From contig CM073324.1 in assembly GCA_037043015.1 (NCBI GenBank), positions 1,357,413 through 1,421,412 of the forward strand: DNA of 64,000 nt. The letters run 5' to 3'. The DNA is from Bryum argenteum (Eukaryota; Streptophyta; Bryopsida; Bryales; Bryaceae). Positions 29,087 to 60,330 of the stretch are shown here, in pieces. The position numbers and the translations under genes were made by a program. Numbering within the stretch: the stretch's first letter is position 1; each line of letters starts with the position of its first letter. The notes below the pieces were generated by a model, which was given only the letters and a program-made list of their open reading frames with translations, did no database searches and was not told where the DNA came from.

Positions 29087-29098
29087 GGACGTTACTTG

Positions 29099-33368: not shown

Positions 33369-33410
33369 GATTGAAGCTAGTACAAGAGAATGGACGAACG
33401 AGTGGTACAA

Positions 33411-34794: not shown

Positions 34795-35647
34795 CGTGCG
34801 ACTAGGATATAGACCCATTGAAGCCTTTTATTCTACATGTATTAGAACAGAAATTGAATATATTGTGGAAAAAGTCCAATTTATGTGAGACGGTCGCCCA
34901 TGAATAAAGACCATAGCCCAACAATTCTTAGATGACATTTTTAGTAGAGAACATTCTAAACTCATATTCGGTGCTATATAAGAAGAAAAATAAAAATAGT
35001 GATATCTTATCTATATTGTTATGTACGTTACCGAAACCACTCATGTCGCAGTAAATCATCATTTTATTATGTTATACGGCAAACTCCCCATCTAGCACTG
35101 TCGTCCATCTGCGTCTGCGGACGCCCGGGTAGCATAAGACGGCGGCATTGGCTGTCAAACTCCTTATTCTTTGGTTTTCTGCATTTAGCTTAAATTTTTC
35201 GAATTTTTGTGAGCATTAGGAATAAAAGGGAACTTTTCTTTTGGTTTCCTTAGTATAGAAAGGCTAGGAATAAATAAAAGTATTTAGCCCCGGTTAAAAT
35301 GATTTTTGAGGTTACCGGTTGGGAAGGTCAACCCGGGTATAGTAACCCTGGATAGCCGGTGTCCTGGCCGGGCGCGGGTTGGGGATAATGGGCGGCGGGC
35401 CGACCCGGCCTGTCAACCCTAATCCTTTTCAGACGGCGGCCCCCATTTCGCGCCACCTGCTTCTCTTCCCCCTCGCGCTGTCGCTGCTCCACGTTTTGTC
35501 GTGTTGCAGCCAGGGGTGTCGTCATCTTGCGAGCGCGGAGTGTGGTGTCGGTAGGCCAGGAGATTGCGCACCAGGGGAATGTACCCGCGTTGAGGAGAAG
35601 GGTGTGAGCTGCCAGCAGTCAGGGTAGAAGTGCGGGGAGCAGAAGCA
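34795..35647. other. Non-coding region before the gag-like remnant
   Basis: AT-rich to about 35,090, then GC-rich. A TATA-like CTATATAAG lies near 34,974. It may contain the 5' LTR or leader of the gag-like element that follows, but I found no matching copy downstream. Confidence 0.4.
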
Positions 35648-38600: not shown

Positions 38601-38915
38601 GCCGCCCGGACACTACCGACCCACCTCTAAGCGAAGTCGAGTCGGGGTACCATTGATACCCGAGACCCTGTGAGTGGTTCCGGAGGAAGTTGTCTGGATG
38701 AGGTTGATGCCCTCTCCGGGGGAACGGAACCCTTGGATGTGGAACCCGAAGGAATCACACCCGGGAGAGACCGGATATCGAAGGAAGGTGCGGGTGGCCA
38801 TCCGGAGGAGCGCGGAGAACCGGAGGTGACCAAAGCATCCTCGCCCAAGTGGACCCGGGGGAGTGAAGACAGGGTAGCGGCCAAGAGGGCAAGACCTACC
38901 CCTGGTTGGGTTTGA
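35648..38915 (+). mobile_element. Gag-like LTR-retroelement remnant without visible pol
   Basis: A GC-rich coding block begins MAPKENAAKGKARKEKSLPE. An N-terminal globular part follows, including CIEFYNRPWNLQRPAFLKEV, as in gag-type proteins of plant retroelements. Then come a long charged, Pro/Glu-rich region and a coiled-coil part near 37,330-37,700. No protease, reverse transcriptase or integrase was found, so it may be a non-autonomous (LARD-like) element or a truncated one. It is broken in several places. Codon use and GC content differ sharply from flanking element DNA, consistent with later insertion. LTRs were not identified. Confidence 0.45.
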
Positions 38916-41699
38916 TGGCCAACCTCGCATCAAGTTGACCAGGGCTAGATCTATCTAGCGTTAGGTTAGAAGATAGGCATTTAGTAGTAGAAGGATAGAG
39001 GTGTGTTCACACCATTTTGGACTTGTAGTAGTTTTTGTGTGTTTGACTTATAGGCGGTCCGGGAGAGGCCACGTGGGCCTTATCCCTGTCCGGGTATTTC
39101 GTGATCCACTAAAAGCGGATCCGGAGCATGAAACCCGGAGTAGCATGGAAGTACTTAGCCAAGGAATGTTCTCATTCTTTGGGTCTTTGTTTGTATCATC
39201 ATCATTCTCGAAATATCTAGGGTTGCGGCCGCCTTTCCAAGTCTAAACCGTCTTCCTTGTTGTTTTGTGTGTGTGTGGTGGTGCAACTAAGTCCCTTGCA
39301 TTGTTTGCTTGAAGATCCGGAGGAAGGTTAGTGTTGGTGAGATCTGTACTAGTGTCCGGGGTAAGGAGTTTTGGCGGTTAGGCGTCACTACGAGTCAAGA
39401 CTTTAGGTGAACATGGTTTCCTAATATTCCCGGGGACGGTGGTCTAGCGGGGAAGTTGGTCATTTGTTGCGGAGAGTGGGTCTTAGTCCTCCTACTATCC
39501 CTGGACCGTATCCAAAGTTGTCCCTTCCTACCTTCTATCCTCGGTGCTGGGAGTTAACGTGTGAGTAGCCATACCAACAGGAAACATTGGCACCCTTATA
39601 GTGACTGCACGGGGTTAACAATCCGGTATTGAAGGGGGCCGAGTCTAACCACAGGCGAATTCGACCTAAGAGAAAAGAGCGTTGTAGGTGTGTTTATGTG
39701 TTGTGTTGAGTAGTGAGAGAATCGAGGAGAGAGGAAGTCAAGTGCCCTAAATCCAGCACTCTAAACTAAGGGAGAACCCTCTGATGGACAAACTGAGGTA
39801 AAACTAAACCAGCTTGGAGATATATTGGTTGACCAGGGTAGGAGGAGTTAAACTCCCCTGGAAGGAAACCAGGACAGGAGAAGCAGAATTGCTAACCAGG
39901 AGATCAGCACCATCCTGGTTAAAGGAGAAGTAAGACAGGACAGTGATAGAAGCACTGTCCTGGGAAGGTTATTCTAGTCACTTTGGAGCTCAGTGAATCC
40001 CCGCGGATCGATTAATCCGGATATCACCTCTGAGAGTGTTCTTAACACTTAAAAGAACACTAAAGGGGAATATCGCTATCACGAATTACGACATTGGTAG
40101 ATAGTCGCATTGAAGCGACATTCACGTACCAAACTCTCTCATCATCAAAGTCATGAAGTCATGTAGAATTAAAGGATATAAGTGCGAAGAAAAATGCTTC
40201 CATCGTGAGCTATCGAGTAAGGCTGTTTATCATTCGCGTTGGTATTATAAAGCTGCGTATGTTTTGGACGAATAAAGTAGAAGTGAACTGATAGTAGCTT
40301 CTATGTAGAGTGTTGGCGCACAGAAGCCGTCTCTGGGATATCGGTTTGCACGTAGAAGCCAGAATTGTTTGACTTAGTAGCTAGAAGCTTATACCTTTAG
40401 CACACGGCATTCTAGCAATTCGGTGGAGGATCTGGACTGAACTGCCAGCAGAGGCCGGATTTCATGCAGAGTCATCGGAGACGGGCACCAAAGTTACATC
40501 ACCCTCCCGATCGATCGTTGACCGCAGATAGTAGACCCCGCGTAGGATCGGATGTTTTGAGATCTTAAATGCCAGTAGCAGTCACAGATGTGGTGCGTGT
40601 CGCCGCATAACCGGTGATGCCGCGCATAAGCGGGTCGACTCCACCGAGGTGCCTTATCTCGAAAGTGCCGATGGTGTAATATCGCCGGGCTCGTAGCGAG
40701 AGATGAGCGTGACTTCCGTGATAAGGTTCCCGGATATCCTCGGTCATTTGTGAGGCTCATGATCGGAGGTCATGTTGAAAACCGAGAACTGCGAAGGAGA
40801 TCCGGTTTTGGTGCGGGTGGGAGAGATACATTGCTAGAACGAAGTACTATCACGAGAGAGAGGAATTAAGCTTTCTTTCTTTCGATTCTTGTAGCGAATC
40901 GAAGATGGCGAGTCATGGAGGGGAGATAACGGCAATGCAGACCCAAGCAAAGTCGTTGATGTAAGCGCCCCCTCCACGTTTTTGATCTCACAGGTGGCGA
41001 AGGATGTCTTGGAAAACCTTTGGGAAGTTCGAGGTCACCAAAGTTCAGACAATCGCGTCGAAGGGCATATGCTTTCATGAGCAGGTATGTGATGATTTTT
41101 CTTCTCAGAATGTCAGTGCATGGCCGAATTTGAAGCGTCAATGAATTTGAGCTCGACAATTGCGCCCAGTAGAAGCCGGCTGGTATCCTCGTTTGAATGC
41201 AGCCTCGTAGACTCGCAGCCTTGTAGACTCGCAGCCTCGCAGCCTCGTAGCATCGCAGCCTCAGAGCCTCGTAGCCTCGCAGCCTCGTAGACTTTTTGCA
41301 TGAGCATTGACATTGACGGATTTGCTCGCGAGATTGGGGTGGGTAGAACATGCTCGCGGAATCCTCGTTCTGTTTTGTGCTTAGAATGCGAATCTACTCG
41401 CTTGTAGCCATGTACAAGTTGGCTGGGAAGGTAGTTTGAAGGCATGACCGAATTCGTGACATCTTTTCGGCGTGAACCATTTGCCTCGTGAATGAACAGT
41501 TTGCCTCGTGAATGTACTGTTTGAGTTGTTTCGTCCGCGAAACTACCTTGCTTGAAGCCACGTAGTAGGTTCGTGGGGGACGATGGAAAGCATGGCCGAA
41601 CTCGCGACCTCGTGCACTTCTTCAAAGATGAGCATCGAGTGGCGAGAATTCCCATCCTCGTTGACAGTCGTTGGAGATCGGTGGACCACTTCACCTCGG
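38916..41699. other. Non-coding region between gag-like remnant and satellite
   Basis: No convincing gene. The part to about 40,000 may be the 3' LTR or tail of the gag-like remnant. From about 41,200 short repeats of GCCTCGTAGACTCGCA appear, leading into the degenerate flank of the satellite. Confidence 0.4.
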
Positions 41700-44110
41700 C
41701 ACATTCGTCAACGAAACATCCTTGCTCAAGAATTTTAATATTTCAGATCGGTGTGCTTGAATTATGCTCCCCGAATCCTTGTTTTGTTCATGTGAGTAGA
41801 GTGTGCAAGATCCGCTCGAAGCCCATCAACGCCGCTTTGGAACCTCGTTTGAATGCGAAAGATGTGTTGTCATTTGAATGTGAAAGATATGCTCGGAGCC
41901 GTATAGAAGCCGGCTTAGATCCTCGTTTGAATATTAGCCCAGATTCGCAACCTCTTTACTTTCAGCATGAGAATGGAGCGTGGGCTTGCTTTGCGGGAAC
42001 ACTCGCTTACCTCGAGCACTATCTACAATGAAAGTACATGGCTCCGAGCCTAGTAGAACCTGCATGAGAGGGACGATTGAATGCTTTGCCGAATTCACGA
42101 CCTCGTGGACTATCGAGAGTCGTTGTCCCAGTAGTAGCGGACTCGTGAAGCCGCTTCACGTCGAGAGTTTTCAACGAAATTGCCTTGCCCATTGTGATTT
42201 GGATGATTGAAAGATCGAGGCTTGGCCGAGTTGTGTACTACGAATTTGCGGCGTCATTGACTGACGAGCTTGACCGTTGAGCCATGTGGAAGACGATCAA
42301 TCCTCGATTGAATGCGTGTGAGAAGTTGCGGCTGGTTGCCTTGCTTGGAATCGAAACTACCTTGCCCGTAATATGCTCGTGGATCCTCGTTTGATTGCGA
42401 AGCCCGAATTCATAGTGACTAAGACCTCGAGCATGACCCTTGCGCGTCATCGTAGAAGCTCATTTGGAGCCTCGTTTAAATTCATGCCGGCATTCGAAGC
42501 ATCGTTGCCCTGCTTGACACTGAAACTCCTTTGCTCGCTTTAGGATATTCTCATCATAGAATGTGAAAGATCTGCTCGCAGTATCCTCTCTTCGTAATTG
42601 TGATGAGAGTGTGCTACATCTAGTCGGAACCCTGTAGATGTTGGCTGGATCCTCTCGTTCGAATGCATGCCGAATTCGTAGACTTTGAGCGGGCTTTTTC
42701 TCGTGAGCTTCTTGCCTTGTGAACCGGCTCATGATGAGCACTCTCGTCAACGAAACTCCCTGGCTCGGAGCCTATTAGAAGCTGGCTGGGAGAGTTTTGT
42801 ATTTCCATTGCCGAATTCGCATTTTCGTACTCTCAGCGAGCGTTGTCTGCATGTTGTAACGGCCTCTTGAACCATCTCACCTCGAGCACCTTCGTCAACG
42901 AATGTACCTTGCTCGGAGCCCTTAATAAAGTGGCTGAGATGGACGGTATGAATGTACGTCGCAATTCGCAGCCTCGTAGACTTTTAGGAAGCGCTGTGTA
43001 GTAGCGGCCTCGTGAAGCAGGTCACCTGGAGCAGTTTCGTCAACGAAACTACCTTGCTCCGCAATTCTAATCCTTGTGATCGGTGTGCTTAGAATATGTT
43101 CGTGGAAACCACGTTCTGTAATTGTGAGTAGGGTGTGCAAGATCTGCTTGGAGACTTGTAGATGTTGGCTGGACCCTCTCGTATGAATGCATGCCGAATT
43201 CGTAGACTCTGAGCGGGCGCTGTCTCTGAGCTTCCTGCCTTGTGAACCGGCTCATGATGAGCACTTTCGTCAACGAAACTCCCTGGCTCGGAGCCTATTA
43301 GAAACTGGCTGGGAGAGTTTTGTTTTTCCTCCGCTGAATTTGCATTTTCATACTCTCAGCGAGCGTTGTCTGCATGTTGTAACGGCCTCTTGAACCATCT
43401 CACCTCGAGCACCTTCGTCAACGAATGTACCTTGCTCGGTGCCCTCAAGAAGGTGGCTGGGATGGACGGTATGAATGTATGACGCAATTCGCGACCTCGT
43501 AGACTTTTGGGAGCGTTGTGTAGTAGCGGCCTCATGAAGGCAGTCACCTCGAGCAGTTTCGTCAACGAAACTACCTTGCTCCGCAATCCTAATCCTTGTG
43601 ATCAGTGTGCTTAGAATATGTTCGTAGAATTCACGTTTTGTAATTGTGAGTAGGGTGTGCAAGATCTGCTTGGAGACTTGTAGATGTTTGCTGGATTCTC
43701 TCGTTTGAATGCATGCCAAATTCGTAGACTCTGAGCGGGCGCTGTCTCGTGAGCTTCCTGCTTAGTGAACCGGCTCATGATGAGCAGTTTCGTCAACGAA
43801 ACTCCCTGGCTCGGAGCCTATTAGAAGCTGGCTGAGAGAGTTTTGTTTTTCCTCCGCTGAATTCGCATTTTCGTACTCTCAGCGAGCGCTGTCTGCATGT
43901 TGTAACGGCCTCTTGAACCATCTCACCTCGAGCACCTTCGTCAACGAATGTACCTTGCTCGGAGCCCTCAAGAAGGTGGCTGGGATGGACGGTATGAATG
44001 CATGTCGCAATTCGTAGCTTTGTAGACTTTTAGGGAGCGCTGTGTAGTAGCGGGCTCGTGAAGCAGGTCACCTGGAGCAGTTTCGTCAACGAAACTTCCT
44101 TGCCATCTGA
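41700..44110. repeat. Palindromic satellite with 523-bp higher-order repeat
   Basis: The 12-base motif TTCGTCAACGAA (arms TTCGT and ACGAA are inverted, 2-base centre) occurs at 41,704, 42,891, 43,036, 43,266, 43,414, 43,558, 43,789, 43,937 and 44,082, plus a one-mismatch copy at 42,743. Spacing follows a pattern of about 148, 145 and 230 bp, which repeats as a 523-bp unit about three times from 42,663; the third unit is cut short. Degenerate copies extend left to about 41,540. The array ends about 300 bp before the first coding trace of the ParB-like gene. Confidence 0.85.
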
Positions 44111-46726
44111 TTGAAATGAAAGTGATCTGCAGGCATGGATTCTGCTCGTGGATCCTTGTTCGAATGTGTAGTCAGAATTCGCAGGGACATTGACCCTAAC
44201 TACCTTATCCTCTCTCTGGTTAATATGTGGAAGATAAATATATATGCACGTATAGCGTTTGTATCCGAAAGTAGGAGAATATTAGGTGATTCATATCTAC
44301 ACCTCTTATCATTTCAATATTAACATTAATCTCTTTTCTCTCATCTCCTTATGAATATACTAACGCTCGAATTTTTGTTGTGTTTGCTTTTGTAGGAGTC
44401 GATTGACATCGAGCCGGAGTTCTCTTGTGGAATCTCGAGAGCGATAGTGCTACGTCTTGCACGCGAACTAGAGTCTTAGATGTAGAGGTTAAACGCACGG
44501 TGGTTCGAGCACTTCCAGTTTGCTACTATAGATACTAACACCGACTACGTTCAATCAACATTGATCGCTCCCGCGATCGTTGTTGAAGATCAACGAGCTA
44601 CTTACATGAAGTCTTGGGGGCGCGTCGTAGGCAACTGCGCTTGGAAGCTCAAGCTCAAGCCAGACTTTGCCCACGACGTTCTAAGAGGATTGCGACCTAG
44701 TCTAGCTAAATTTGAACAGTCTACTTTAATTTTAGCTACTGACATCTTACATTACCATGAGACGTAAAGACCAAAGTTCATGTTGTCTTCATTTATAATT
44801 TATGTTGCTTCTCTATTTCTATTTGAGTTTTCATAATTGATTACTAAGTATCTTTGGTACTCTTGCGCAGACCCCTCTCTCGATTGCCCCGCTGTCATCT
44901 GAGACCGATCCCACCAACATGGCAACAACTGACGGTTGTGACGCGGAACAGCAGTCATGTTTGCCACTGACTATCTCCCCAAGCCGCCAACTCACATCTC
45001 AATCTCCAATTGCCGAAGACGATGACGATGACATTCAAGAGATTGTTCCGGGTACACAGTGTTTGCGCGACATTGATGCAGTTGACGAGATGAACACATT
45101 TACGGTAGTTGCGTCTCCAACTGCAAGATCTGCGAGGGAATCTCCTTCTCTCCCAGATACTTTGGAGGTTGGGGTTGTTGAAATGCCAAGTCATTTGCGA
45201 GAGATGGATCTATGTGGAGCGCGACGAGTTACGCGCTCAACAAAAGGGAAACTCAATCAACACTATATCCAGATTGCGTATCAAACCAGTTGAAAAATCT
45301 CGACTTCGAATTCCCCTCTGTCGCCTCTCGTGTTACCCCAAGGTACGTCCTATCATTGAAACAGATGTTTGCAATTTGGCAAACGAGTTTGTCAAAGGAT
45401 ACAGAGAGGGCGTCGTGTTTTTATGTTCCCCTTCAAAGAAGAAGCAGTAGCGGCGGTTGGTAAGGGCGATGATGCCGCTTGGAATAACCTCATTGAAAGC
45501 GGCCAATGATCGCTTCAAGTCTCATTGCAAGCCGATCCGGACCTTTGCCAATTCAATGGCAAATACTTCTACGTCTACGAGGGGAATCATCGCGTTACTG
45601 CTTGGATGCGGTACATTGAGCAAATGCGCAGAGATGACCCTGATTGGTATTTCTTTGTCGACTGCATTGTCCTTGACGGACGTGCAGAATACAAAGTACT
45701 TATCGACGCGATGAATGATATCAACTGGTGAGTTCGATTTTGTATTATTTTTCCTTGGCTGTAGTATTTTTTACACAATTTACATATATTTTGTACTAAC
45801 CTCATCAACAGGTCCACAGAGCATGATCATGTTGAAGATAGCCTGCCATCGAGGTTGCAACGCATGCGCAAGTTTGGCAAGATGCCACTAGAAGAATGGA
45901 AACCCCTCATCTCTGCTGAGGACTGGAAGTACTGTTACACCGCAAAAGATAAGCTGAGGCAGACTTGGTACTTCGTTACTAAAGACGTCTTCATAAAGTT
46001 CCTCTATGCGGTGGGTCATTTTGCATATCTTTTGTATGAATTCGTTTTAAATTGAGTTTTTTACTTTATCCAACATGAGTTCTTTGATTGTCCAGAGGCA
46101 ATGTGCTAAAGTCGCCGACGAAGCCCAAGCCCAATACTACGAGGACACTCCCGTCGACGAGAGGACTGCGCAAGGAGTTTGGACGGCCATGGACGATGCT
46201 CTCAAAGCTGAGGTTAAACGAATCCGACAGAAAGATTTCGACAAAATGCTTGCCATTGCTAATCCTGAGTTAGGAAAAGCTTTTGAGCAAGAGGTATGAA
46301 TTCACTCGACCTATCTTACTTCTATCTCTCAATTTCGTTCTCCACATCCTCTCGTTATATTTCTTAATCTTTTTCTTGTAATTTGATGTAGATCAATCTT
46401 CATTATAGTCGTCAAAAGGATCCCGAGATGTCTGGAGCGCCTCAGGAAGGTCGCCACCACCAACGTTTGAAGGAAGTGAAAACCATGGCCGTTGGTGGAA
46501 CAACACTCCGGCATTCCGACGGAGTGTTCGCTTTCCGGACCCGGTCGAGATGAAAGACAGGGTGTTGGAGGCATGGCTTGCCCGTGCTGCCTTGTGGTCT
46601 CAGGTACTACATATGCACTCAATCACATTCGTTACACCGATATGACCATACCCATTTTTCCTGATTTTTACTAACTTCACTTGTTGTCCACAGTTAGCAA
46701 CGTATCTGAAGGAGGAGGTGGACAAG

Positions 46727-48252
46727 TGTGAACCCAAAAACCACCATGAGGTGGCATTTGGTCACAAGGGGTTTTGAAGAGCAAGATTAGATGAGAAAAG
46801 AAGAGAGGAAGAAGGAAGACAAGAAGAAGACAAGGAAATAGGGAAGAAGAAGAAGAGAACCACCGGCCGGATGGCTTGGAAGTGGTCTCTACTCTTTTGA
46901 TTGCCATTCCTTCATCTTAGGTCCAAATGGGGCGTGCCATAGCTTTTTGGAAATCTAAGCTCAATGTGCACCCGCCCCTAAAATCTCAAAGGCAGAAGAT
47001 CAACGAGCTAAGACTGATTCTTTGTTTGACTGTGGCGGTTTTTGCCACTTTGCCGGGGGGAAAACTTTTTCAACACCCCGACTTTGGAAGCTCATATCTC
47101 CCTCTCTACAACTCGGAATTGAGCATGCTTTATACCATTGGAAAGCTCTACTGGAGCTCTATCTAGTGTAGAAATCTCAAAGGAGTTGAAGAAAAATCGA
47201 GTGAGTTATGAGGGAAACAATCTGGCTGGCTTTCATAGGGCAAGAACAAGCTCTTATCTTAATAACAAAGGAACTAAATAAGGAGGAGGAAGATGAGTGA
47301 GGCAAGACAAGCAATTTGAGAAGGGCTCTCCTTCTCCTAACTACTAACACTTCAACAACAAAATCATTTTGAGAAGGGCTCTCCTTCTCCTAACTACTAA
47401 CACTTCAACAACAAGATCATTTTGAGAAGGGCTCTCCTTCTCCTAACTACTAACACTTCAAGAAAGATGATCATGGTGAACAAAGAGAAAAAGGAGGCCC
47501 ATGGCCTTCCTCCTCCTAACTACATAGATGAATAGGTAGGTGAACAAAATGGAGGAGAAGGGGGCCCAAGGCCTCCCTTCTCCTACTCTAACCTAAACTA
47601 AGAGGAAATGGAAGAGGTGATGATAGCTTGGAAACAAGCTATTAAGTACCAAATGGGAGCCGCCAAAGAGGCGGCTCACCATAACTCTAACTAAGGCCTA
47701 AGCCCTAACTAAGGCATGGATGATGACCGCCACTCCATGCGCTCCGTCCTTGAAGCCTCCATCCTATCAACGACTTCATCAATGGATGTAGCTCCCACAT
47801 GCTACCACAAGGTTAGATGAATGAATCTCTCAACAACCAAATTTCAAACACAACAAGGACATCAAAGACTACTTGTACAAGGCCCATGGTAAATTTCTAA
47901 CCCAACTCCAAGTCCCTAATTTTACGCTAATCAAACCAAGGATCCACTAGGGGCTTTTTTACCTCCTCTAGTCCTTCCTTATCGAACCAAGGATCCACTA
48001 GGGGGCTTTTTACCTCCTCTAGTCCTTCCTTATCGAACCAATCACTCCTAATCTAAACTAAGCTCAAAATTCATGCTAAATAATCTACCAAAGGCCTTGC
48101 GACAACTAATCTTTAATATACCTATTGCATTCAAAACTCAATTATCATAAATTCATCAAATTACCTCAAGATGTCATGGTTTGCAAACAATTCATTAATA
48201 AAAATCCATTATTAGTAACACTTAAGCAAAAGAGAGCTTACACGCTCTCACA
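46727..48252. mobile_element. Solo-LTR-like element, 1.5 kb, TG...CA ends
   Basis: Begins TGTGAACCC and ends CTCTCACA, flanked by the 5-bp duplication ACAAG (46,722-46,726 and 48,253-48,257). TG...CA ends with a 5-bp duplication are the mark of LTR elements. No retroelement coding sequence is visible, so this is a solo LTR or a non-autonomous element. It contains a 53-bp tandem repeat (47,315-47,467, about three copies) and a 50-bp tandem duplication near 47,932-48,031. It sits in an exon of the ParB-like gene. Confidence 0.75.
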
Positions 48253-48790
48253 ACAAGTTCTTCAAACAAGAGAATCCCCACATCCCGAACATTGACGCCA
48301 TTTTGATGCCCGAAGAGTACGTCGAAAAATGGCGTCTTCTTTTATGGGATAAGGCATTCGATGCTTATTTGGGGCCCAAAGCCAGCCCTAAGTTCATTAA
48401 AGGCTCCCACATCGACAAGATTGGCGGAGGTGCTCAAACTAAGAAGCGATTGATGTTCAGGTTTGATCACGCCGTTCTGTATTGTCAATTTTCTGAATAT
48501 TATATTCAGAAAAGTGTTTCTAATTGTTTTTACTCTTTGTAGGTATCTCAAACACGAGCTCGTTGCTAAGGGTGGTCTTGCTCCAGTGGGCATTCCGTCT
48601 GAATTCCAAATCCCTTGCTTGAAGAAGAAACCGAGGTCGATTTTTTCGAATGATCAGAAGCAACGGTTCAAGATGGCTTTACTGTTGACTGGTGGTTGGT
48701 TTCTAGAGTCTCAAACCCACCATGTTCACAACGAAGAGAAGCATCTTGTACAGATAGCGGAATCGGTCGACGCCGCTCCTGTAGCACTAC

Positions 48791-49277
48791 TGTCAGGGAC
48801 ACGGAAACAGATGATAAAAATATGTGGAAACTAACAAGAACTGACAGGAGCTTGAATTAACAAGAAGAGTACACGAACAACAACAAGACAGATGAGCTAG
48901 AGCTCCAAGAGATGCGTTGTCGAGACTGAGGTTGCCCTCAGCCTCGACTCCTATATATACTAGCTAAGAAGAAGGTTCTCCAGAACCTTTCTCAACCTAG
49001 GACCTTCTAGGACCTTCCAAGAACTTCCAAGACCTTCCAGAAGCTTCCAGGGCCTTCCAGAAACTTCAAGAACCTTCCAAAAACTTCCAGAGACTTCCAG
49101 GAACTTCCAGAAATTTCCGGAAGCTTCTAGAACCTTCTAGAACCTTCCTAAGTTGTCTACCTAGTACGTGGCCGTGACACAGGGAATCTTCAAGGAATCT
49201 TCGAAGAATCTTTTAGGGAATCTTCAAAGAATATTTTAGAAGAACCTTCTAGAAACTTCTTGTGTATGTCCGTGACA
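48791..49277 (-). repeat. LTR of the chromovirus (3' LTR in element orientation)
   Basis: 487 bp, starting TGTCAGGG and ending GTGACA on the plus strand. On the element's strand it begins TGTCACGG. It carries the heat-shock-element array and a TATA box (48,951-48,960). Confidence 0.9.
49105..49147. promoter_or_regulatory. Heat-shock-element array in the chromovirus LTR (copy 1)
   Basis: Nine alternating TTC and GAA triplets, each separated by exactly two bases, run without a mismatch from 49,105 to 49,147. Looser copies of the same pattern fill about 48,975-49,258. This is the binding pattern of heat-shock transcription factors (nTTCnnGAAn). In element orientation the array lies upstream of the TATA box GTATATATAG at 48,960-48,951. 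Confidence 0.8.
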
Positions 49278-52200
49278 TCACCTCCCCTTCTAGCTTCGAG
49301 GTCTCCGAGAAGCAACGTTGATCTTAGTCAATACCAACGCAGAAAAATGAAAATCTGCCGCATGACATCTGCAATAAACTCCAATTGTTGTTCACGAGGC
49401 AAGTGGTTCATCGGTCCTTGAAGCCAACGATAGTGGCCGACGCCTTCCACTTCTGACCAAGCGTGAACTTCTGTGTCTTCGTTATGGAATTGTCCTGCAA
49501 ACACACCTTCTGGCAGACCATTGAAAGCGGGCTCGACCTCAAATACAATCACCAGCGATCGATTGCTCGGAATCCTCCGTCGGCGTCGTGGCGTAGGCGG
49601 TTCTTCATCTCTGGGTCGCCTTCGAGAGTTGGTTGGTTGAGATGGCATAACTGGTATCCTATCTATCATCTATCTCTTGACTATCCATGACTAAAAACCA
49701 AACTATGACTATAGAGAAATTTTATCTAGAACAAAATATGTAAATCAAATGTGAATCAAGGTTGTGTTCACTCTCCCCCTTTTATTCTCGTGAGTGGGCA
49801 AGCGTCAGAGAGAAGTTATCGTCGGAAAGGCTTAGGTTTATGAGGATATCGTTGATGAAATTCCTGTACCTTTTCCGGCGCATTTACAAGATTTTCGGCA
49901 TGTTCCCACGTTCTTTCATTGATGTCGTATCCGCTCCAATGCACAAAATACTCCAAGTTTCCCCTTCTGCGCCGTGAATCCGAAGACCTTATCCACCTCA
50001 TATTCCTCGTGGTTCTCAATTTCGATCTTAGTGGCGGCCCTCGCACTCTTTAGGAAAAGTCGACTCTCGATAAGGTTCCAATAAAGACACGTGGAAGACT
50101 GGATGTACCTTCATAGTAGCTGGTAACTCCAACCGATACGCCACTGGATTGATTTGTTTCTGGATTGATCCAACTTATCACACGGCCGCTTGGTCTTGAT
50201 ATTCCGTCGAAGCAGCCATACTTTATCTCCGATCTTGAAAGTAGGTGCCTCATTCCGAAATTTATCTGCGGACGTCTTGTACAACTCTTGGGCAGTTTGC
50301 AATTGAAGTCTCAGCGTTGCTTGAAGTTCCGATAGCTGCTTCGCAAAATCTTCTGCTGCTGGGTTGTTATTGGCCACTGAATTCCATAAATCAAGCTTCG
50401 GGTGGTATCCGTAGTTGGCAAAGAATGGTGTTTGTTGGGTCGATGCATGAATAGTGTTGTTGTAGGCGAACTCGGCAAGCGGTAGATACTCGATCCAATC
50501 GTCTTGCTGATAGTTGATGGTGCAACGTAGAATCGCTTCCAATACTTGATTCACCCGTTCCGTCTCCGTCCGTCGGTTTGAGGATGAAATGCCGAAGAAA
50601 GCGATATCCACCTTCAATATCTCAAATAGAGATTTTCGAACTTGAGACGAATCGGGTTCCGCGATCCGACACAATATCATCTGGCAAGCCGTGACAACGA
50701 TATACATTATCAAAAAGAGTCTTGTCAGTATCTTCGCCGACGATGTCTTCTTGCAAGGAACAAAATGCGCCATCTTCGTCACCGATCTACCACAACAAAG
50801 ATCTTTGTCAAACGAGTTTGAAGGCGGCAGGTCCAGAATGAAATCCATGGAAATCAAGACCATGGTCGATGCGGGATAGGCAATGGCCGCAAAAGTCCAT
50901 AGGGGCGATGCCGAGGGTTCTTCGACTTGAACAAATATCACAAGAGATAACAAACTCCTTCACATCCTTCCACATTTGGGGCCACGGAGAAGTCTCGCGA
51001 AATAAGCTCCAATGTCTTGTTGTATCCAAAATGTCCTGCATTTGGAAAGTCATGGCGTGATTGGAGGACTCAAGTCGTCGTGTTCGTCCCTTAGGAATAT
51101 ACGATCGCTCTTCAAAGTACAAAAGATCTCCTCCACTCAACTTGTCATTATCAAGACGCTTTCGATCTCGAGAGCTACAGAATCTTCAATTGTCGCAGAC
51201 GATCTCACGGTTAAGGAAGTCCGATCAATTGGCATGACAAGAGCGCAAATTCTAAAATGCTCCGGTTTTTCAAGAATGTGGTGCATTGTTGATCAAAACG
51301 CTTCCAGCTTTAGGTGCGACACGATCTCCTCGATAAGGCATCGGATAGTCCTTGTTGCTTCCCAGGCCGATAGGTAATAACAAAGTCAAATCGCGACGAC
51401 ATATTCCACCGAGCAGCGTCGATTCAAGACTCGAGCCGACATAAAGTACTCCAAATTCTTGTGATCCGTGTATACGGTCACCTGGATGTCTGTGCCTTCG
51501 AGAAAGTGTCGCCACTCTTGGAAGGAATCTACTATGGCAAGAAGTTCCTTATCGTGGATTTCATAATTGATTTCAGCAGCAGAAAACTTTCGAGAATAGA
51601 ACGCCACTGGATGAAGCTTCCCGTCCACGTCCATCTGTGAAAGTACGGCTCTCAAAGCAAAATCAGAAGCATCGGTCTCCAAATAGAAGGCCTTTGTAAA
51701 GTCTGGATGTACCAAGATTGGAGTTGTGATAAATGCCATCTTGAGGTCTTGGAATGCCTTTTCTGCTTGAGGTCCGTATTCGAGCTTGTCCTTACAAGTC
51801 AACCGAGTGAGTGGAGCAGCGACTCGAGAATAATTCTTGATGAAGATTCGATAGAAGTTAGCAAATCCAAGAAAACATTGTACGTCTCTATCCGTCTTCG
51901 GAACCTCCCATGATACAATTGCTTCCACCTTCTTAGGGTCCATCTTCAAGCCGTCTGTAGTTACAATGAACCCTAAAAACTCCATCTCGGTTTGGTGGAA
52001 TAGGCACTTCTCCAACTTGGCGTAGAGTCGCCGTCGCTCGTAGTTTCTCGAGGACCAAACGAACGCGCTTCTCGCGCTTTCTTCTTCGTTTTGGAAAATA
52101 TTAGGATGTCATCCGGATAGATGACAACAAAGTCGTCAAGGTGCTCCCGAAAGATGTCATTCATCATGTGTGTTGGAAAACAAATGAAAGATTGGTAAGG

Positions 52201-54451
52201 CCAAAAGCGCATGACATTATATTCAAAATGGCCATACCATGCGGAACGATGTCTTCCACTCGTCTCCTTGCTTGATCCGCACGAGGTTGTAAAGCTCCTT
52301 CGGATCAATTTTTGTAAAGATCTTTTGCACGCCCGAGCCGCTCCAAGAGACCAGAAATCGAGTAGTAACGGTGAACGATTTTTCTTAGTTACCTTGTTGA
52401 GGCCTCGATAGTCCACGCACATTCGTAAGGAGCCATCCTTCTTCTTTACAAACAAGATCGGTGCCCCCGGTGGCGACTTTGAATGACGAATGAAGTTCTT
52501 CGCTAGATTCTCGTCAATGTCTTTCAGCCTCCGCTAACTCCGTTTGAGAGATTGTAGATTGGGCCAAAAGGCGGTTGTGCTTCTTTCTTGCAGGTCTATG
52601 GGCGCGATCGTATGGCCGATCTTTCGGTAGTATGTCGCGTTCTTCTTCTTCAAACACGTCCTCAAAATCTCAGTATTGCTCTGGTATACTTGCCGTCGAA
52701 CTCTTCTCCGTGCTTAGTTGAAATGTGCATAGATGACAAAGTCTTTGCCGCTTTTGGATGATCGTCTTAACGCCCTTCTTTCGAATAAACAATGGTTTCC
52801 CTATCTTGGGATGTCTACTAGGTTGGCTCTTGGAATGTTCTTTGAAAAAGTCATTTTCCGCAACTTCCAATCTATGGTAGGGTTATGTTGTTCTAACCAA
52901 GAGAGACCTAGGATGACAGGGTTTGACGGGGTTCTAATGACATTAAAAACGACGTAACTACTATGGTCCTTAAACGCCACCTCTATAGGTCTTGATTCAT
53001 GGGTGACACCGCCAGGACAATAAAGGTCGTCCATCTATCACCTCTACATAAACAAGGTTTGGACTTTACATACTAGACGAATCTTGTGGGCGCTTAGCAA
53101 ATTCTTCATCTAAAAAACAAGTAGATGCTCCCGAATCTAATAGAGCTAAAGTTTTGTGTTTTTGAGGACCAAAAGACAAGGGAATTGTAAAACAACGGGC
53201 GGGGTTGGATGAGAGAAAGAGGAACCCGATTGTTGTTGTGGCATTGAATCGCCCAAACCGCATGGTTCCTATCAGAGCTGGGCATCGTCGTTTTCCGGGA
53301 TCACCGCACTCCTACTCTTAACAATGCGCCGGTTCGCTTCTTGGGGCAATTTCCAACCTTGTGGCCTTCTTCTCCGCAGCACAAACAAAGTCCTTCTTCC
53401 ATACGCCGTTTTTTCTCTTACGGAGTAAGAGCTTTTGACACGTGCGCGTCGATTTGCATGGCTTTTGCCTCCGAATGAGAACTCAAATTGTTTGCCGACA
53501 TACTCGTGGTGTAGCGACTCGTTTGGTATTTTGGACGCTTGGTCTTGACGACGATTTGGAATAAACGGTTGTCGACTTTATAGCTTGGCTAATGGCTTCG
53601 TTGAGCGTTTGCGGATCGGAAGAGATAAAAGTAGGTCCTTCACATCATCCTCAAACCCCAATAAAATCGACTCACCAATGCTTCTTCGCCTTGATTGATG
53701 TCACTAGCTTGATTGTTTAAAATCCGATCGTGAAGCGATGCAGAGCGCATTCTTGTCGTAGTGATCGGATCTTTGTTGTAGCCCATCGGACCTTGTCATG
53801 TTCGCCAAACGCTTCGCAAATGCCTCCAAGAACGTCTCAAAGTTGCTCAGAATTGGCGATCGTTCTCGAACAAGGGGGCAAACCACGACAAAGCTTGCCT
53901 CGTAAGCGAGTTCCAACAAGTCCAACACGCGCCTCCTCCGTCGGATATCGTTCAGCCAGAAAGCGTTATCAACTTGATTTGGTTGACAAAAACTCGAAAC
54001 TTGGAACGCGTTCCGTCGAACTTGTCGGAAGACTAACTCTAGGCTCCTTCCGTTGTTGAATCATTGGGTTTTGTTGAACCAAAGGTGTAGTCGCCTCCTC
54101 CCGGTGTAGTTGCTTGAGATGGTGAATCGCGGATGATGTTATCCCGGATGCTCCGTCGTTGTGAAGTCTTGCCATGGCTCCTTCTATCTCCGCTTGTCTA
54201 TGTGATAATGCAAAGAAGAGCGCTCGTGATGGCGTCCAATTTGGATTCCAAATTTTCACCATACTAACGTCTTGATCTTTGACTAAATCTACGAAAGAAA
54301 AGAAAAAAATTGACAAGAGAACAATATTAGTTTAGAGGAGGGTAATCCGCAACCTCTAAAACACTAGCACACCTTCGAGAAGAGGGGTAATCCACTCTCT
54401 AACAAGAAGGGACTAACTCGATATTTGTGAGAAGGTAGTCTCGACAAACCC

Positions 54452-54938
54452 ATCGAGGGACACGGAAATGAGATGATAAAAATATGTGGAAACTAACAAG
54501 AATCGACGGGAGCTTGAATTAACAAGAAGAGTACACGAACAACAACAAGACGGATGAGCTAGAGCTCCAAGAGATGCGTTGTCGAGACCGAGGTTGCCCT
54601 CACCTCGACTCCTATATATACTAGCTAAGAAGAAGGTTCTCCAGAACCTTCCTCAACCTAGGACCTTCTAGGACCTTCCAAGAACTTCCAAGACCTTCCA
54701 GAAGCTTCCAGGGCCTTCCGGAAACTTCAAGAACCTTCCAAAAACTTCCAGAGACTTCCAGGAACTTCCAGAAGTTTCCGGAAGCTTCTAGAACCTTCTA
54801 GAACCTTCCTAAGTTGTCTACCTAGTACGTGGCCGTGACACAGGGAATCTTCAAGGAATCTTCGAAGAATCTTTTAGGGAATCTTCAAAGAATATTTTAG
54901 AAGAACCTTCTAGAAACTTCTTGTGTATGTCCGTGACA
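54452..54938 (-). repeat. LTR of the chromovirus (5' LTR in element orientation)
   Basis: 487 bp, aligned base for base with the other LTR at a constant offset of 5,661. It is the promoter-bearing LTR for the leftward element, with a TATA box at about 54,612-54,621. Confidence 0.9.
54766..54808. promoter_or_regulatory. Heat-shock-element array in the chromovirus LTR (copy 2)
   Basis: The same nine-triplet TTC/GAA run as in the other LTR, again without a mismatch, within a looser array from about 54,636 to 54,920. Because this is the element's 5' LTR, the array is in the right place to drive transcription of the element under heat. Confidence 0.8.
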
Positions 54939-55280
54939 ACTACAAGTTGATGATGATGACGACGACTTCTACATGCTTCCAGGCGCTCCACCACCACCCC
55001 CCCTCGCTGCACCAAAAGATAGAGGTACTGCAGGTGGCAGCCGGAAACGCGTCTTGAGAAATGAGCCTACCCCGAGGAGGAAGAGGAAGAAAAGAAGAGA
55101 GGAGGTGGAAGAGCACGAAGACAATGACGAAGACGACGAGGGAGGGCATGGAGATGTTCCCATTCTCGATGAGCTTGCGGGTGTTGTAGATTGAAATGTA
55201 TGTATGTTACTCTAGTTGTACTTTGTTATTTATGTAACATGTGCGCTTTTGTATGCATTGCGATTCAAAGGGAGGTTGAA

Positions 55281-57042
55281 ATGACACAAGCTTCGCAGGG
55301 GACGGTTGTCAACAACGCTGGGTGTGGTGTAAGAGGTCCTGTTGCCTCGGATAGGCGGCGATTTGCGCCCCGAAAGGCATGGTCGAGGGTGGATACAAGC
55401 CTACGAGGTGGGGTTTCGAATGTGAGATCTACTCCTCCTTCGTCGTCGACCCCTCGTGAGTCTCCTCTGTCACATGGACCGACGCAATCTAATGGACCCA
55501 TGCGTCCCATAGTTTTTCCCAAAAATGTGGGTAGTAGTTCCTCTTCTCCTATAACGGTGACGCTCCTATGTTCCTTGAGAGAGGAGACACAGCGGCCTTG
55601 GTTGAGATCTACAAAAAGGGTCTTTGGTGGGTTGATGCTATTTCGGCTATGGTTCAACACATCAAGAAGGTAAATCCCTCTCTAACTATGAATCGTTTTT
55701 GAACTGAAGTTACTCTATCATGTTTATTGGTTTCTGATTACTTTGTGTCTAATTCACAGATTGGAAAGGGTAGGGACTACCCTTGCGAAAAGATGGATAG
55801 AGACAGCCCAAACATCCCGGGATTGACCTTATCTTTTGAGATGTTCCCGAGAACTTGCCCCGCTTAATGTCTCGCCGGATGCGATTCCTATCCGGAACAA
55901 GCGTGCTTCGTATTACTTCGAGTCCGTGTTTGTCTTTGCCTCATACCATTTGACGGACCTTGGGACTATCCTAATTATGCACCCCAAGGACGTCAAAATT
56001 GACCGCATCCTACACGATCGTGCTAGTTCTTACAATTTCCGGCTTGTGCGTGAGTGGTGGGCCTATAACCCCTTCCTTTTTGGTTAGACTCGGCGCTAAC
56101 GCAAGAGAGGTATTCTTCGAATTTCGCACTTGATTTTATCTCTCAATTCAACATTACGTTTTCTGAATATCGAATTGCTTATTGCAGACCCATAACTTTA
56201 CCATCAAGGTCTATGCTCGGAAGGACTTCGTGAAGATGTTCAACATACTGTCTGGGGCGCAAGCATACGCAGGAGTCGCGATCATACCCGACGAGGATGA
56301 CATGGTCAGTAACTTTGCTGACGCGAGTTCCATTACCTACCGCACTAACGGGAAGCCGTGGCGCGGCGCACGGGAGAAGGATCCGTCGTTTTTGCAGTGC
56401 TTCGTGGATTGCCTTACGGACGATGGGGGAATCGTGTTTGACTTGGCGCTAGTACGGTAAAAATTTGATTACCCATTTATGTTCATTGCATACTCATATT
56501 TTCAATACTCATGTGGATTTTCAAATGTGCAGGTGCTTCAATCATCGCATGTGCACGCTCCAATCGTCACCTCATTGCTTTTGAGGCAGATGAGGAGATC
56601 TTCGATGGGCTTTTGGCGACCTTCAAACACCCTAAACCGTTGGAAGAAGAGAGTGGGGAATCGGCCTACGGTGACGATTACGACTCCGATGAACCGTATT
56701 CGAAGAAACCTCGCACTTATATTGGTGTGTACTCAATTCAATTCATTGACTTTTTGTGATTTCAAAGTCGTACTACAATCGTAACATTATTTGGTTATGA
56801 TTATTTAGCTATGCAGCATCTCAAGACACTTGACCCAAAACGCTCATCTCATCAATAGCCCACCTCCCACACATGTTCTACCCTCTTATGCGGAGCATGT
56901 AGCTCGAGCTTTCGTCGCGGCTCCAACTCCTCCTGTACCGAATGCTTCACGAAGACGCTTTAGAGCTGGTGTGCTTAGATACATTGATTTAGAGGCAGAT
57001 CAGTGTGACCACCATTTTAATGGTGCTTCACCTTCATCGTAG
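55281..57042 (+). pseudogene. DNA-methyltransferase-like gene of the element, spliced
   Basis: Starts MTQASQGTVVNNAGCGVRG, 86 bases after the stop of the ParB-like gene. Coding traces follow: GDTAALVEIYKKGLWWVDAI (near 55,600), an exon from 55,761, SYYFESVFVFASYHLTDLG (near 55,910), and an exon from about 56,188 with NILSGAQAYAGVAII and KDPSFLQCFVDCLTDDGG. Then IVFDL, GASIIACARSNRHLIAFEAD and EEIFDGLLATF match the end of N6/N4-type methyltransferases (Asp motif, Gly-Ser loop, then R-x-x-x-x-x-E). The Asp-Pro-Pro-Tyr catalytic motif was not found. Frame breaks are visible near 55,555 and 55,840, and the phases of the intron at 56,460 do not agree. Target and activity are unknown. The tail 56,830-57,042 may be the last exon in another frame. 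Confidence 0.5.
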
Positions 57043-58002
57043 TGTGTTTATTTTTGTTTTCTATTTCAGAGATGACTATGTAGGGCCAACTCTCATGAGT
57101 TGCCTTACCCTACAAGTCATTACTTTCATATGTTTTACATTATTTTACATATATGTGTCTTTGCCTTAAACCGTATTGAAAATTTTCAAAGTCCAATTCT
57201 GTACTCAATCTATATGTTGGATTCACTTGTTATACCCCACTATTTTAAATGACATTTAAAATTCTAAAATGTATACCGATTCTTATAGGTCAATGCTTCC
57301 CTAAATTTGTCAATGTCTACAGGAGCTTATATTTTGTCCCTATTAGCTCGGGATGATAGTCGCTTTTTACGCTACGCGATGCTCAAACGAGCCCGATGGA
57401 GATCGAACCCGGACCTTCGCTATGCCATCGTTATGTCTAATCCATCCACTACATTAGAGTAAACGTGAGACAGTTTCTATTACTGATATTTGGATTATAT
57501 ATTCCATTGCCATTTATATTTTTTCCTTTATCAGGACAGTTACCAACATGCGCAATATTCCTTGCCGGGATCGTGGGAGCAGCGCGTTACACAAGAGGCA
57601 ACTATCCAAGGATGAAGTATAGATCTAGAGGGATTTCTTTGCTTTCGCCATGATGACGTCAGCCCTAATTTATCCCTAGACCGTAAATCCAAAAACAAGT
57701 TTAATAATAACCTAAATCATATGTTCAATATAACCTTTAAATCGTCATGCCTCCATTTCACACGTTCATCAATATGATGACATCAGCCCTACTTTCAATA
57801 TATTTACATAAAATCTTCAAGATAATACAAATGAAATATTCTTGCAAGGTGGGACCCACATTTAAAGTAGACCCAACACCACGGAATTAGGGACCATAAC
57901 CCCTAAAAATAGACATTTTAAAATAGTACAGTAAAAAATTAAGTGGTAATAGGGTACTTTACTTTGAAAAAAAATTGTTAAAAATAGTCAAAATTGTCCC
58001 GT
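57043..58002. other. Right subterminal region of the 29-kb element
   Basis: AT-rich, no gene. It contains a tRNA-like segment (57,320-57,465) and a near-repeat of ATGATGACGTCAGCCCTA at about 57,650 and 57,776. It leads into the right terminal repeat. Confidence 0.5.
57320..57465 (-). mobile_element. tRNA-derived SINE-like segment
   Basis: Read leftward from about 57,465, it has an A-box-like TGGATGGATTAGAC and a good B box GGTTCGATCTCC, 60-70 bases apart overall. The flanks do not pair as a tRNA acceptor stem, so a SINE head is more likely than a tRNA gene. It is not the same family as the copies at 9 kb and 27 kb. Confidence 0.45.
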
Positions 58003-58085
58003 CACCGCTCTACGCTCACCGCTCTACGCTCACCGCTCTACGCTCACCGCTCACCGCTCTACGCTCTACGCTCTACGCTCACGCC
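58003..58085. repeat. Right terminal inverted repeat with GCTCTAC subrepeats
   Basis: Complement of the left end: read inward from 58,085 it begins GGCGTGAGCGTAGAGCG and is identical for 31 bases. It then continues with further GTAGAGCGGTGAGC units, making this end longer and more repetitive than the left one. Confidence 0.85.
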
Positions 58086-58097
58086 TCTACATTCCCC

Positions 58098-60330
58098 AAG
58101 AACAAGATATGGTATATAGTTTCACTTCTTCTCAAAAAAAAACCAATCAGCTCTAAGTTGGTCTTTAAAGTTAAGACTAAAGCTGATCGTACCATTGATA
58201 AATAAAGGCTTGATTAGTGGCAAGAGGTTGCACACAAATTCAAAGTATTGATTACACATAGACATTTTCTTGAGTTGTCAAACTTAACTCTACTAGAATA
58301 TTTTTTGCTTTGGAAGCTCAACATGATTTGGAAATTCACCAACTGAATGTTAAAACAACATATTTACATGGATATATAAAAGAAGGTACTTATGTGGATA
58401 TCCTTGAAGGATTATCTCGTCTTTCACATCAAACTAACATGTAAATTAAAGAAATCTTTGTATGGCCTTAAGCAATTATGTAGAGCTTCGTATCAAAGAA
58501 TGAATCAATATTCACTACTCCATGGATATCAACGCTTAGAATCAGATGCTAATATTAATGTAAAATAGATATTTAATAACGGTTTTACAATCATTACCAT
58601 ATATTTTGATAATTGCATTGTTGCCACCAATAAAATTGTATCAATCCAACAAGCTAAAAATATCTTGCACAAGGAATTTGACATGACAAATGAAGCCAAA
58701 TGTCATTATATTCTTGGAAATGTATTTATGAGAAATAGACAAGAAGGTTGGATGATGATACATCAACAGAAATATTTTTCTAATAAGCTTCAAGAATTTA
58801 ATATGCTCAATTGCAATCAAATAAGCACACTCATGTAATTTGGATTACATTTGAGTAAAGAAGACACTACAAGAGGATCATATCCATATAACAAAGATGG
58901 AGGGAGCCTAATGCATGCTATCATAAATACAAGACCGGATTGTACTTTTACCACCAGTAGCTTAGTACAGTACTTTTAAGATCCTAATACATCTCATATA
59001 AAAACACTGAAGAGAACTTTAAGATATAAAAAGTACCTCAAACTTTAGACTGAAGTATCAAAAATGTGCCCAAGGGGATGTGCTTCATGGATACTTTTAT
59101 GTAGATTTGGTTGGAGACAAAGAAACATGGAGATCTACCTCATGATATTATTTTCTTCTTGCTAAACGTGTTATTTCGTAAGTAATCTCTTCAACAGTCC
59201 GTAAAAAACAACAATGTGTAGCACTCTCTTCAACAGATTCAGAATATATTGGCAAAGCCAATGTTGAAGCTATTAGATTAAGGAACATATTATATGAAAT
59301 TGGTTTCCCATAATACAATCCAACTAATACATATACTGATAGTCAAAGTGCAATAGCTTTAAGCAAAAATCCTAAATTCACTCTAGAAGTCAACATGTAG
59401 ATACCCAATACCATTTTAGAAGAGAAAATTTCCTTTCACAAAAAATTAAGCTCAAATATGTTCCAATAATAGACATGAAAGCTTATATATTTACAAAACC
59501 GTTACCAAAACATAAACATTATTATTGCATGTTCCAATCATGTATGGATATAATCTCATCAGATTTATATCCGATACCAAAGTCACCAATACAAGCCTTG
59601 ATAACATATACAATGAGAGTCAAACCATCTAGATTCTATCGGAGCAATCCTAACCAAAATATTTAAGATCGTACATTAATACTTCATAAAATATTCCTGC
59701 CAATATGAACATCAACATCACACTTTGCTAGGTCTTCAAGTGGAAGAAATCATTCACCAGCCTGATGTAAAGTTTCAAAGACTACTTAAAGTGAACCATA
59801 TTTATATTACAATTGGTGCAACCCAAAATGTCTTCATCCGATCAAAGAGAGAAATAGCCCACTCAAAACCCTAACTTTATTGATAACCTCAAATCTCTAA
59901 TTACTTAAGAAAAATATAAGGAGAACAAAAAGCAGTAGACAATATTCTTAGTCCTATTTTGAGAAGGCATCAAATATTATTAAAGACTTATATATTAATT
60001 ATTATATATTATTGGAAAGAGTATACATCATTATATCATCACCAATAATTATTTTATCATTTGAAGAAAGTATGCAAAAGATAAGAGTTGTTAGAATAGT
60101 TTTTGAGTACAATTTAGAGGACAATACTAAAATAAGAGAAGTATAGTTGTACAATTGGTCAGGGTAGGAATATAAGGTAGTTAGATATCATATATACATC
60201 CTATGACCTTGATAGACTATAAATAGTCTCCAAAGTTTGTCATACCACACTTCTTATTAATAAATTCTACAATTTCTTCTACAACAAGGTTTTCTATAAG
60301 TCTTCTACACCAAAGTTTTTACAAACAACA
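58098..60330 (+). mobile_element. Decayed copia-type remnant, right part, with candidate LTR
   Basis: Starts with the right copy of the 10-bp duplication, then shows copia reverse-transcriptase and RNase H traces on the plus strand: KLVFKVKTKADRTIDK near 58,170, HQLNVKTTYLHGYIKEG near 58,340, and IFTKPLPKHKHY near 59,490. It is broken in many places and old. A candidate 3' LTR lies at 60,089-60,330 (TGTTAG ... CAACA, with a TATA-like TATAAATAG near 60,220); no partner was found on the left side. Confidence 0.75.

Follow-up and report, generated by a model that had tools for sequence, protein, structure and literature searches.

A decayed 29-kb TIR transposon with a probable ParB-like and amino-methyltransferase module in a plant-type genome

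ParB-like and DNA-methyltransferase genes of bacterial type, lying next to each other and interrupted by introns, raise the question of whether a prokaryotic modification module has become the cargo of a eukaryotic transposon, and of what it could do there. We addressed this question in a window of 64,000 nucleotides, which is the whole stretch of DNA analyzed. A plant host, as supposed when the locus was first read, agrees with the content of the window, which holds a peroxidase-domain ORF that we take to be a chloroplast ascorbate peroxidase, as well as Ras-family and protein-kinase domains (Pfam).

Boundaries, contents and decay of the transposon

The whole TIR transposon occupies positions 29087–58097 and measures 29,011 bp as it stands, with later insertions counted in. 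It is flanked by a target-site duplication, the 10-mer AAGAACAAGA being present both on the left (29077–29086) and on the right (58098–58107). Shuffling of the flanking sequences on either side (51 and 71 bases) produced a common 10-mer in 1 of 2000 shuffles. Tandem Repeats Finder detected a heptamer array, (GAGCGTA)n, near the left end (29100–29140, plus strand) and, together with a motif count, an array near the right end (58002–58084, minus strand) that is inverted relative to the left one. Exact copies of GAGCGTA number four at 29104–29131 and six, inverted, at the right end, and a single stray copy is found at position 8380 of the 64-kb window. MULE transposons have TIRs with target duplications of 8–11 bp, and the 10-bp duplication and the inverted arrays at the ends are features of this kind. 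The insertion target was a copia-type reverse transcriptase: the Pfam RVT_2 alignment opens inside the right-hand duplication, at position 1 of the profile. The left flank reads by eye as copia-like sequence, and no Pfam domain was found there.

The inverted terminal arrays and the 10-bp duplication bracket both reading frames of interest and a transposase-like gene, which bears out the proposal of the sequence-only reading that the gene pair is transposon cargo. The transposase-like gene (29500–33368, minus strand) is located at the left end of the element, on the strand opposite to the ParB/methyltransferase module. It is broken, and a three-frame reading reveals a C-terminal CxC...CxH pattern that appears SWIM-like by eye. 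Neither its three minus-strand raw frames nor the assembled pieces matched Pfam, the MULE transposase profile included, and a piece of it gave no match in PDB. An open frame inside the element (34303–34791, plus strand) encodes an acidic protein of no recognized family, with only a chance-level match in Pfam (E 0.25). Raw-frame Pfam scans found nothing relevant on the plus strand at 33900–38900, at 39000–43700 and over the spans of the ParB-like and methyltransferase-like genes, or on the minus strand at 29088–34002, 34000–39202 and 40000–44400. Rfam and tRNA scans also found nothing.

Two later insertions of LTR type sit in the ParB-like gene. One of them (46727–48252; 1,526 bp) is solo-LTR-like, with TGTGA...TCACA ends and the duplication ACAAG. 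The other, recognized by its LTR pair and flanks, is a Ty3/gypsy-type retrotransposon (48791–54938, minus strand) with the duplication ACTAC, LTRs alike in 475 of 486 ungapped columns, and reverse-transcriptase RNase H domains identified by Pfam. The ParB-like and methyltransferase-like genes each contain frame changes and an in-frame stop, and this copy is therefore a pseudogene. With both frames broken and two insertions in the ParB-like gene, this copy of the transposon is inactive. The two genes had been described as an adjacent pair, and they do share a strand and a spacing of 86 bp, but the two later insertions mean that they do not form one continuous span.

The ParB-like and methyltransferase-like genes

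The ParB-like gene lies on the plus strand. It may begin with an upstream exon at 44480–44763, an open frame with a GT-AG intron (44764–44870) directly after it. The next exon or exons (44871–45727) encode the block RIPL..L..YPKVRPI..DV..LANEF and the motif YEGNHRVTAW (45576–45605), and contain frame changes and an in-frame TGA. Further exons are located at 45812–46010 (between introns 45728–45811 and 46011–46095), 46096–46293 (followed by intron 46294–46391) and 46392–46603 (with a frame change inside, followed by intron 46604–46693). The C-terminal exons at 48258–48785 are separated by an intron at 48461–48542, and the last part of the gene (54939–55194), with an acidic and basic tail, ends in a TGA at 55192–55194. 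The methyltransferase-like gene (55281–57042, plus strand) contains several frame changes and four introns (55670–55759, 56110–56187, 56457–56532 and 56725–56816); GGIVFDL is encoded on the plus strand at 56425–56445 and ACARSNRHLIAFEAD at 56547–56591.

The ten GT-AG introns of the two genes are 76–107 bp long and T-rich, their ends having been picked by eye. Their pooled GC content is 0.313 and their T content 0.441, compared with 0.497 and 0.249 in the exons (9 of 10 exons, the insert-bearing one left out). An intron structure in both genes, as first supposed, is accordingly likely from composition and splice-site dinucleotides. The 86 bp between the stop codon and the ATG at 55281 (55195–55280, plus strand) are intron-like in length and composition (GC 0.34, T 0.42). 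Two separate genes are thus not established, and a single fused gene may make up the module.

The assignment of the second gene to a bacterial type of methyltransferase is supported. The protein matched PHROGs methyltransferases with E-values of 2.2e-4, 3.6e-4 and 6.4e-4, with a well-kept motif I/II region in the alignment, and none of 862 scored shuffles (2000 made) reached its score against a profile of bacterial ParB-methyltransferase fusions. The Pfam profile N6_N4_Mtase reached 14.3 bits (E 0.04; cut-off 26.7), with its match in the C-terminal region where it is expected, and NCBIfam gave no match. In a search of plasmids nine of the ten best matches listed were annotated as site-specific DNA-methyltransferase (E 0.3–3), and in a search of phages (best E 0.05) many of the 30 matches listed carried a methyltransferase or methylase annotation. 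PDB returned weak methyltransferase matches with E-values of 0.3 and 0.39.

ParB similarity of the first gene is likely. The protein matched PHROGs 1033 with E 0.0082, whereas it had no match to ParB_N in Pfam or to any NCBIfam or PDB entry. Our own ParB profile of 41 sequences missed it (855 of 1081 scored shuffles, from 2000 made, equaled or exceeded the real score), and hhalign with our own ParB profiles did not recognize it. A GNHR-type profile gave 13.1 bits, a score reached by 18 of 500 motif-keeping shuffles and falling to −1.1 when the motif was masked; hhalign with this profile reported a probability of 87, but over 17 columns at the motif. In the ParB/sulfiredoxin fold a pair of strands precedes G-x-[HR]-R and a helix, and a strand-strand-helix arrangement appears at VYEGNHRVTAW in a single-sequence model with a mean pLDDT of 44.7, built from a translation that spans one intron and carries TGA and TAG as residues. 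The quality of this model is too low for a fold search, and no uninterrupted translation of the window covers an entire domain. Two bacterial matches proved on inspection to lie outside any ParB-like frame. Of the earlier assignment, then, the motif stands and PHROGs agrees with it, but Pfam, NCBIfam and our own ParB profiles do not; as a ParB-like gene it is plausible and, from one copy, unproven. Profile searches had been proposed as a check on the pair, and in this decayed copy PHROGs recovered both domains, but Pfam N6_N4_Mtase stayed below its cut-off and ParB_N was not recovered.

Possible role of the module and competing explanations

The explanation that we consider fairly probable is that of a 29-kb TIR DNA transposon in a plant-type genome, equipped with a transposase-like gene and, on the opposite strand, a spliced ParB-like/amino-methyltransferase module. 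The methyltransferase would be of the 6mA or 4mC type. In live copies, the ParB-like part could recognize a sequence of the element, with the terminal heptamer arrays as the obvious candidate target, and bring the methyltransferase to element DNA. The element would in this manner mark its own ends or body, and the mark could alter silencing, replication coupling or transposase access. The DNA target, the mark and the benefit of the module are inferred. The full scenario, in which a plant transposon marks itself through a ParB-like protein that reads the terminal heptamers and a methyltransferase that writes 6mA or 4mC, and so escapes silencing or licenses transposition, is offered tentatively and is rather doubtful as a whole.

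About equally doubtful is the opposite proposition, that the module binds DNA but has lost the ability to methylate it, with the methyltransferase fold acting as a structural partner or pseudo-enzyme. Active amino-methyltransferases have [DNS]PP[YFW] as motif IV; this pattern is absent here, and its position is taken by D-V-P-E. However, the frame changes and the stop cross this stretch, so that DVPE in one dead copy says little, and the region of motifs I and II is well preserved. The distance between motifs IV and I is 180 residues, compared with 175–194 in 11 of 11 bacterial fusions, as measured on a hand-assembled read-through from a non-canonical motif IV; a global alignment left this part unaligned. 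A pseudo-enzyme is compatible with the transposon reading and rivals the marking step only.

Passive capture in the style of Pack-MULEs, in which host or foreign genes were picked up and are useless to the element, is unlikely. Plant Mutator-like elements are known to capture genes, and the copy is decayed, yet the genes of the module are long and intron-bearing rather than short fragments. Moreover, brown, green and red algae all have transposons for which the same rare domain pair is reported (PMC12477816), and this recurrence argues for a recurrent benefit. Still less likely is that plant transposon proteins of other, unrelated kinds carry short motifs resembling these domains by chance. 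Chance resemblance would fit the weak ParB support and the lack of any curated family above cut-off in Pfam and NCBIfam, but a PHROGs scan of the raw unspliced plus strand gave just three matches up to E 1, two of which were ParB-like and methyltransferase, compared with none on the minus strand, and no scored shuffle attained the methyltransferase score. Very improbable is a remnant of a giant-virus or other DNA virus insertion as the source of the two genes, which do occur in phages and giant viruses: the introns are of spliceosomal type, the transposon ends carry a target duplication, and IMG/VR yielded no relative by the protein and DNA patterns tried (tblastn on 22 stretches retrieved by the DNA pattern gave nothing better than E 0.96). 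The element itself as a giant-virus insert was rejected in view of the introns and the target duplication.

Relation to known systems

ParB and methyltransferase as accessory genes of transposons are a kind already published (PMC12477816). Sola1-1_Ec32 of Ectocarpus is a 21.5-kb transposon encoding a 1104-aa protein with ParB-like and N4/N6 methyltransferase domains (Dinatale et al. 2025, PMC12477816), and self-marking of transposon DNA was proposed there for such proteins of algal transposons. Like the present element, it is a giant DNA transposon in which ParB-like and amino-methyltransferase parts are encoded on one strand and the transposase on the other (PMC12477816). The differences are that Sola1-1_Ec32 comes from a brown alga and has a Sola1 carrier and a single protein (PMC12477816), whereas here the host is plant-type, the carrier has a 10-bp duplication and heptamer arrays, and the module comprises one or two genes. 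Both domains fall within one transposon (29087–58097), as in the class of Dinatale et al. (2025), the ParB similarity being the weaker of the two. Green and red algal transposon proteins with the same kind of accessory (Iyer, Abhiman and Aravind 2011; Petroll et al. 2025, Bostrychia) are included here as cited in PMC12477816, and land plants may already be covered by the 2011 review. In the literature covered, outside which most subscription papers lie, PMC12477816 was the only source found to describe the two domains together in a transposon of a eukaryote, and a land-plant case may be in print.

Among bacteria, single-chain ParB-N6/N4 methyltransferase proteins were present in 11 of 14 stretches. 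They share with our module the domain pair and its order, and also the motif spacing as counted from the non-canonical motif IV, but they are fused in one open frame, have a DPPY motif, and resemble the window only around motif I/II. VANC proteins of Arabidopsis VANDAL elements, which are called MuDR-type (PMC12730594), are anti-silencing proteins whose targets are often tandem repeats (PMC5735166). By description, they too are encoded by an element and act on the methylation of its own DNA, but VANC causes loss of methylation (PMC5735166), unlike the marking proposed here. Charophyte and dinoflagellate retrotransposons carry C5 methyltransferases (PMC5890265), another case from the green lineage of a DNA methyltransferase carried by a transposon, although these enzymes are of C5 type, host-derived and located in retrotransposons. 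The bdelloid N4CMT is likewise a bacterial amino-methyltransferase used in a eukaryote, but it belongs to the host, contains a chromodomain and places 4mC on transposons (PMC8885841).

With the present element, the class reported from brown, green and red algae (PMC12477816) gains a member that has a different carrier transposon, and its host range would become wider should the host prove to be a land plant. The element also supplies a concrete candidate target, tandem heptamers that within the window are confined to the element ends save for one stray copy. Marchantia has N4-cytosine methyltransferases (DN4MT1), and reports of 6mA and 4mC in plants are contested. If live copies are modified, the module would represent a transposon-driven source of 6mA or 4mC in plants and a natural sequence-targeted DNA modifier, and would bear on these contested reports.

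Boundaries and surroundings of the element

The two genes named by the sequence-only reading lie inside an element at 29087-58097, near either end of which GAGCGTA heptamers form an array, on the left at 29100-29140 and on the right, in inverted orientation, at 58002-58084. The arrays are the sole inverted repeats detected between 28.0-48.8 kb and 54.9-64.0 kb by a scripted search with a score of at least 17. Directly outside the arrays the 10-mer AAGAACAAGA occurs identically on both sides (29077-29086 and 58098-58107); when the two flanking stretches were shuffled 2000 times, a 10-mer in common turned up once. To the right lies a copia-type reverse transcriptase, whose Pfam RVT_2 alignment starts inside the duplication at profile position 1. 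By eye, the copia-like sequence expected upstream of it is present in the left flank, in which a Pfam search found no domain, and continues across the rejoined insertion site with one frame change. Because of the inverted arrays, the 10-bp duplication and the copia-like sequence on both flanks, we read 29087-58097 as a single transposon insertion of 29,011 bp, and the earlier description of the genes as transposon cargo is well supported. A duplication of 10 bp fits Mutator-like elements and would suit membership in that group.

The element's left end carries a broken minus-strand transposase-like gene (~29500-33368) with an N-terminal cysteine motif and a C-terminal CxC...CxH; it matched no Pfam family and possibly represents an unnamed transposase family. 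The stretch at 34303-38700, GC-rich from ~36 kb, holds long open frames that belong to no known family and is possibly an additional insertion. At 42570-44103 a 300-nt unit occurs three times at a spacing of 523 bp, and palindrome-like TTTCGTCAACGAAA cores are visible in it on inspection; the minus strand of 57340-57465 resembles by eye a tRNA-derived SINE, where ARAGORN found no tRNA.

In the window as a whole, Pfam detects a peroxidase domain in the ORF at 7777-8658 (whose product, we presume, resembles chloroplast ascorbate peroxidase), Ras-family and protein-kinase domains in further ORFs, and copia-type and gypsy-type reverse-transcriptase pieces. The simplest reading is that the window is plant nuclear genome.

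Structure and decay of the putative gene pair

Three-frame reading bore out the reported motifs of both the ParB-like gene (plus strand, ~44480-55194) and the methyltransferase-like gene (plus strand, 55281-57042). Ten GT-AG introns of 76-107 bp (ends picked by eye; GC 0.29-0.38 each) have a pooled GC of 0.313 and T of 0.441, compared to 0.497 and 0.249 in exons (9 of 10 exons listed). Introns rich in T and poor in GC, like these, are typical of plants. The core observation is sound, but the gene boundaries needed correction for two inserts, frame changes and an intron-like gap.

The first insert, a TGTGA...TCACA sequence of 1,526 bp (46727-48252; duplication ACAAG), is solo-LTR-like with 51-53-bp tandem repeats inside. 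The second is a minus-strand Ty3/gypsy-type element (48791-54938; duplication ACTAC) whose two LTRs agree in 475 of 486 ungapped columns; it splits the ParB gene and is therefore younger than the larger transposon. Frame changes affect both parts alike, and an in-frame stop adjoins the ParB motif. Given these lesions and the two inserts, the window copy of the module is dead.

From the stop at 55192-55194 to the ATG at 55281 there are 86 bp, an intron-sized gap (GC 0.34, T 0.42) in which candidate GT-AG pairs occur, each lacking a strong site at one end or both. Separate plant genes only 86 bp apart would be unusual and the gap is intron-like, so one fused gene is a serious alternative to two adjacent ones.

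Domain assignments

The cleanest control for both domains is a PHROGs scan of both gene spans in raw frames, neither spliced nor assembled by hand, each stop being replaced by X. The plus strand matched ParB-like PHROG 1033 (E 0.068), methyltransferase PHROG 8769 (E 0.037) and an unknown family (E 0.13); the minus strand gave zero matches up to E 1.

In the methyltransferase domain tests (headed METHYLTRANSFERASE), PHROGs 18293 (2.2e-4), 3008 (3.6e-4) and 8769 (6.4e-4) all matched at the motif I/II region. The Pfam check proposed in the sequence-only reading, run on the window sequence, gave N6_N4_Mtase at E 0.04, under the family cut-off, and no ParB match. The best phage match (E 0.05) is without annotation, and most of the best 30 phage rows annotated beyond hypothetical are methyltransferase or methylase; 9 of the 10 best plasmid rows carry the annotation site-specific DNA-methyltransferase (E 0.3-3), and the only two PDB matches to E 10 are both methyltransferases (E 0.3 and 0.39). 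A profile built from 11 bacterial ParB-methyltransferase fusions (out of 14 stretches fetched) scored the real sequence above all 862 shuffles that received a score (2000 made); hhalign against the fusions gave 27.7, while 40 shuffles yielded no more than 25.1. Motif I lies 180 residues from the motif IV position (175-194 in the 11 fusions), although motif IV is non-canonical and global alignment failed. This motif reads DVPE, which makes a pseudo-enzyme possible.

The ParB assignment is weaker than claimed. The ParB-like protein matched PHROGs 1033 (E 0.0082), but neither Pfam nor NCBIfam, and went unrecognised by our own profile of 30 chromosomal-type ParB and 11 fusion ParB domains, where the real score was equalled or exceeded by 855 of the 1081 shuffles that received a score (2000 made); hhalign against ParB gave no significant alignment. 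A GNHR-type profile of 57 viral proteins, themselves picked by the motif (dereplicated from 74 loci with it in an open frame, among 80 loci examined of at least 120 stretches), scored 13.1 bits, reached by 0 of 1758 scored full shuffles (2000 made), with an hhalign probability of 87 over 17 columns. Since 18 of 500 motif-keeping shuffles also reach 13.1, and masking the motif (YEGNHRVTAW, 45576-45605) lowers the score to -1.1, support beyond it is slight. A single-sequence structure model of one ParB piece was poor (mean pLDDT 44.7).

Relation to known systems

Both domain families are common in bacteria (ParB_N in 57 and N6_N4_Mtase in 40 of 60 genomes of one phylum), and the 11 fusions encode the two in a single open frame. 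Dinatale et al. 2025 (PMC12477816) describe the 21.5-kb Ectocarpus transposon Sola1-1_Ec32, which encodes, on the strand opposite its transposase, a 1104-aa protein that combines a ParB-like domain with an N4/N6 methyltransferase domain. The central idea of the sequence-only reading was therefore already published for algae, and the function it suggested, self-marking or evasion of silencing, is likewise a published proposal. The window locus is a further member of this algal kind, with the same domain pair on a different carrier transposon.

Two other reports describe Arabidopsis VANC, element-encoded proteins that act on their own element and often target tandem repeats (PMC5735166), and C5 methyltransferases acquired by retrotransposons (PMC5890265). 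By analogy, we infer the target, mark and benefit of the module: the ParB-like part would bind repeats of the element, for which the heptamer arrays are the obvious candidate target, and the methyltransferase part would then mark the element's DNA.
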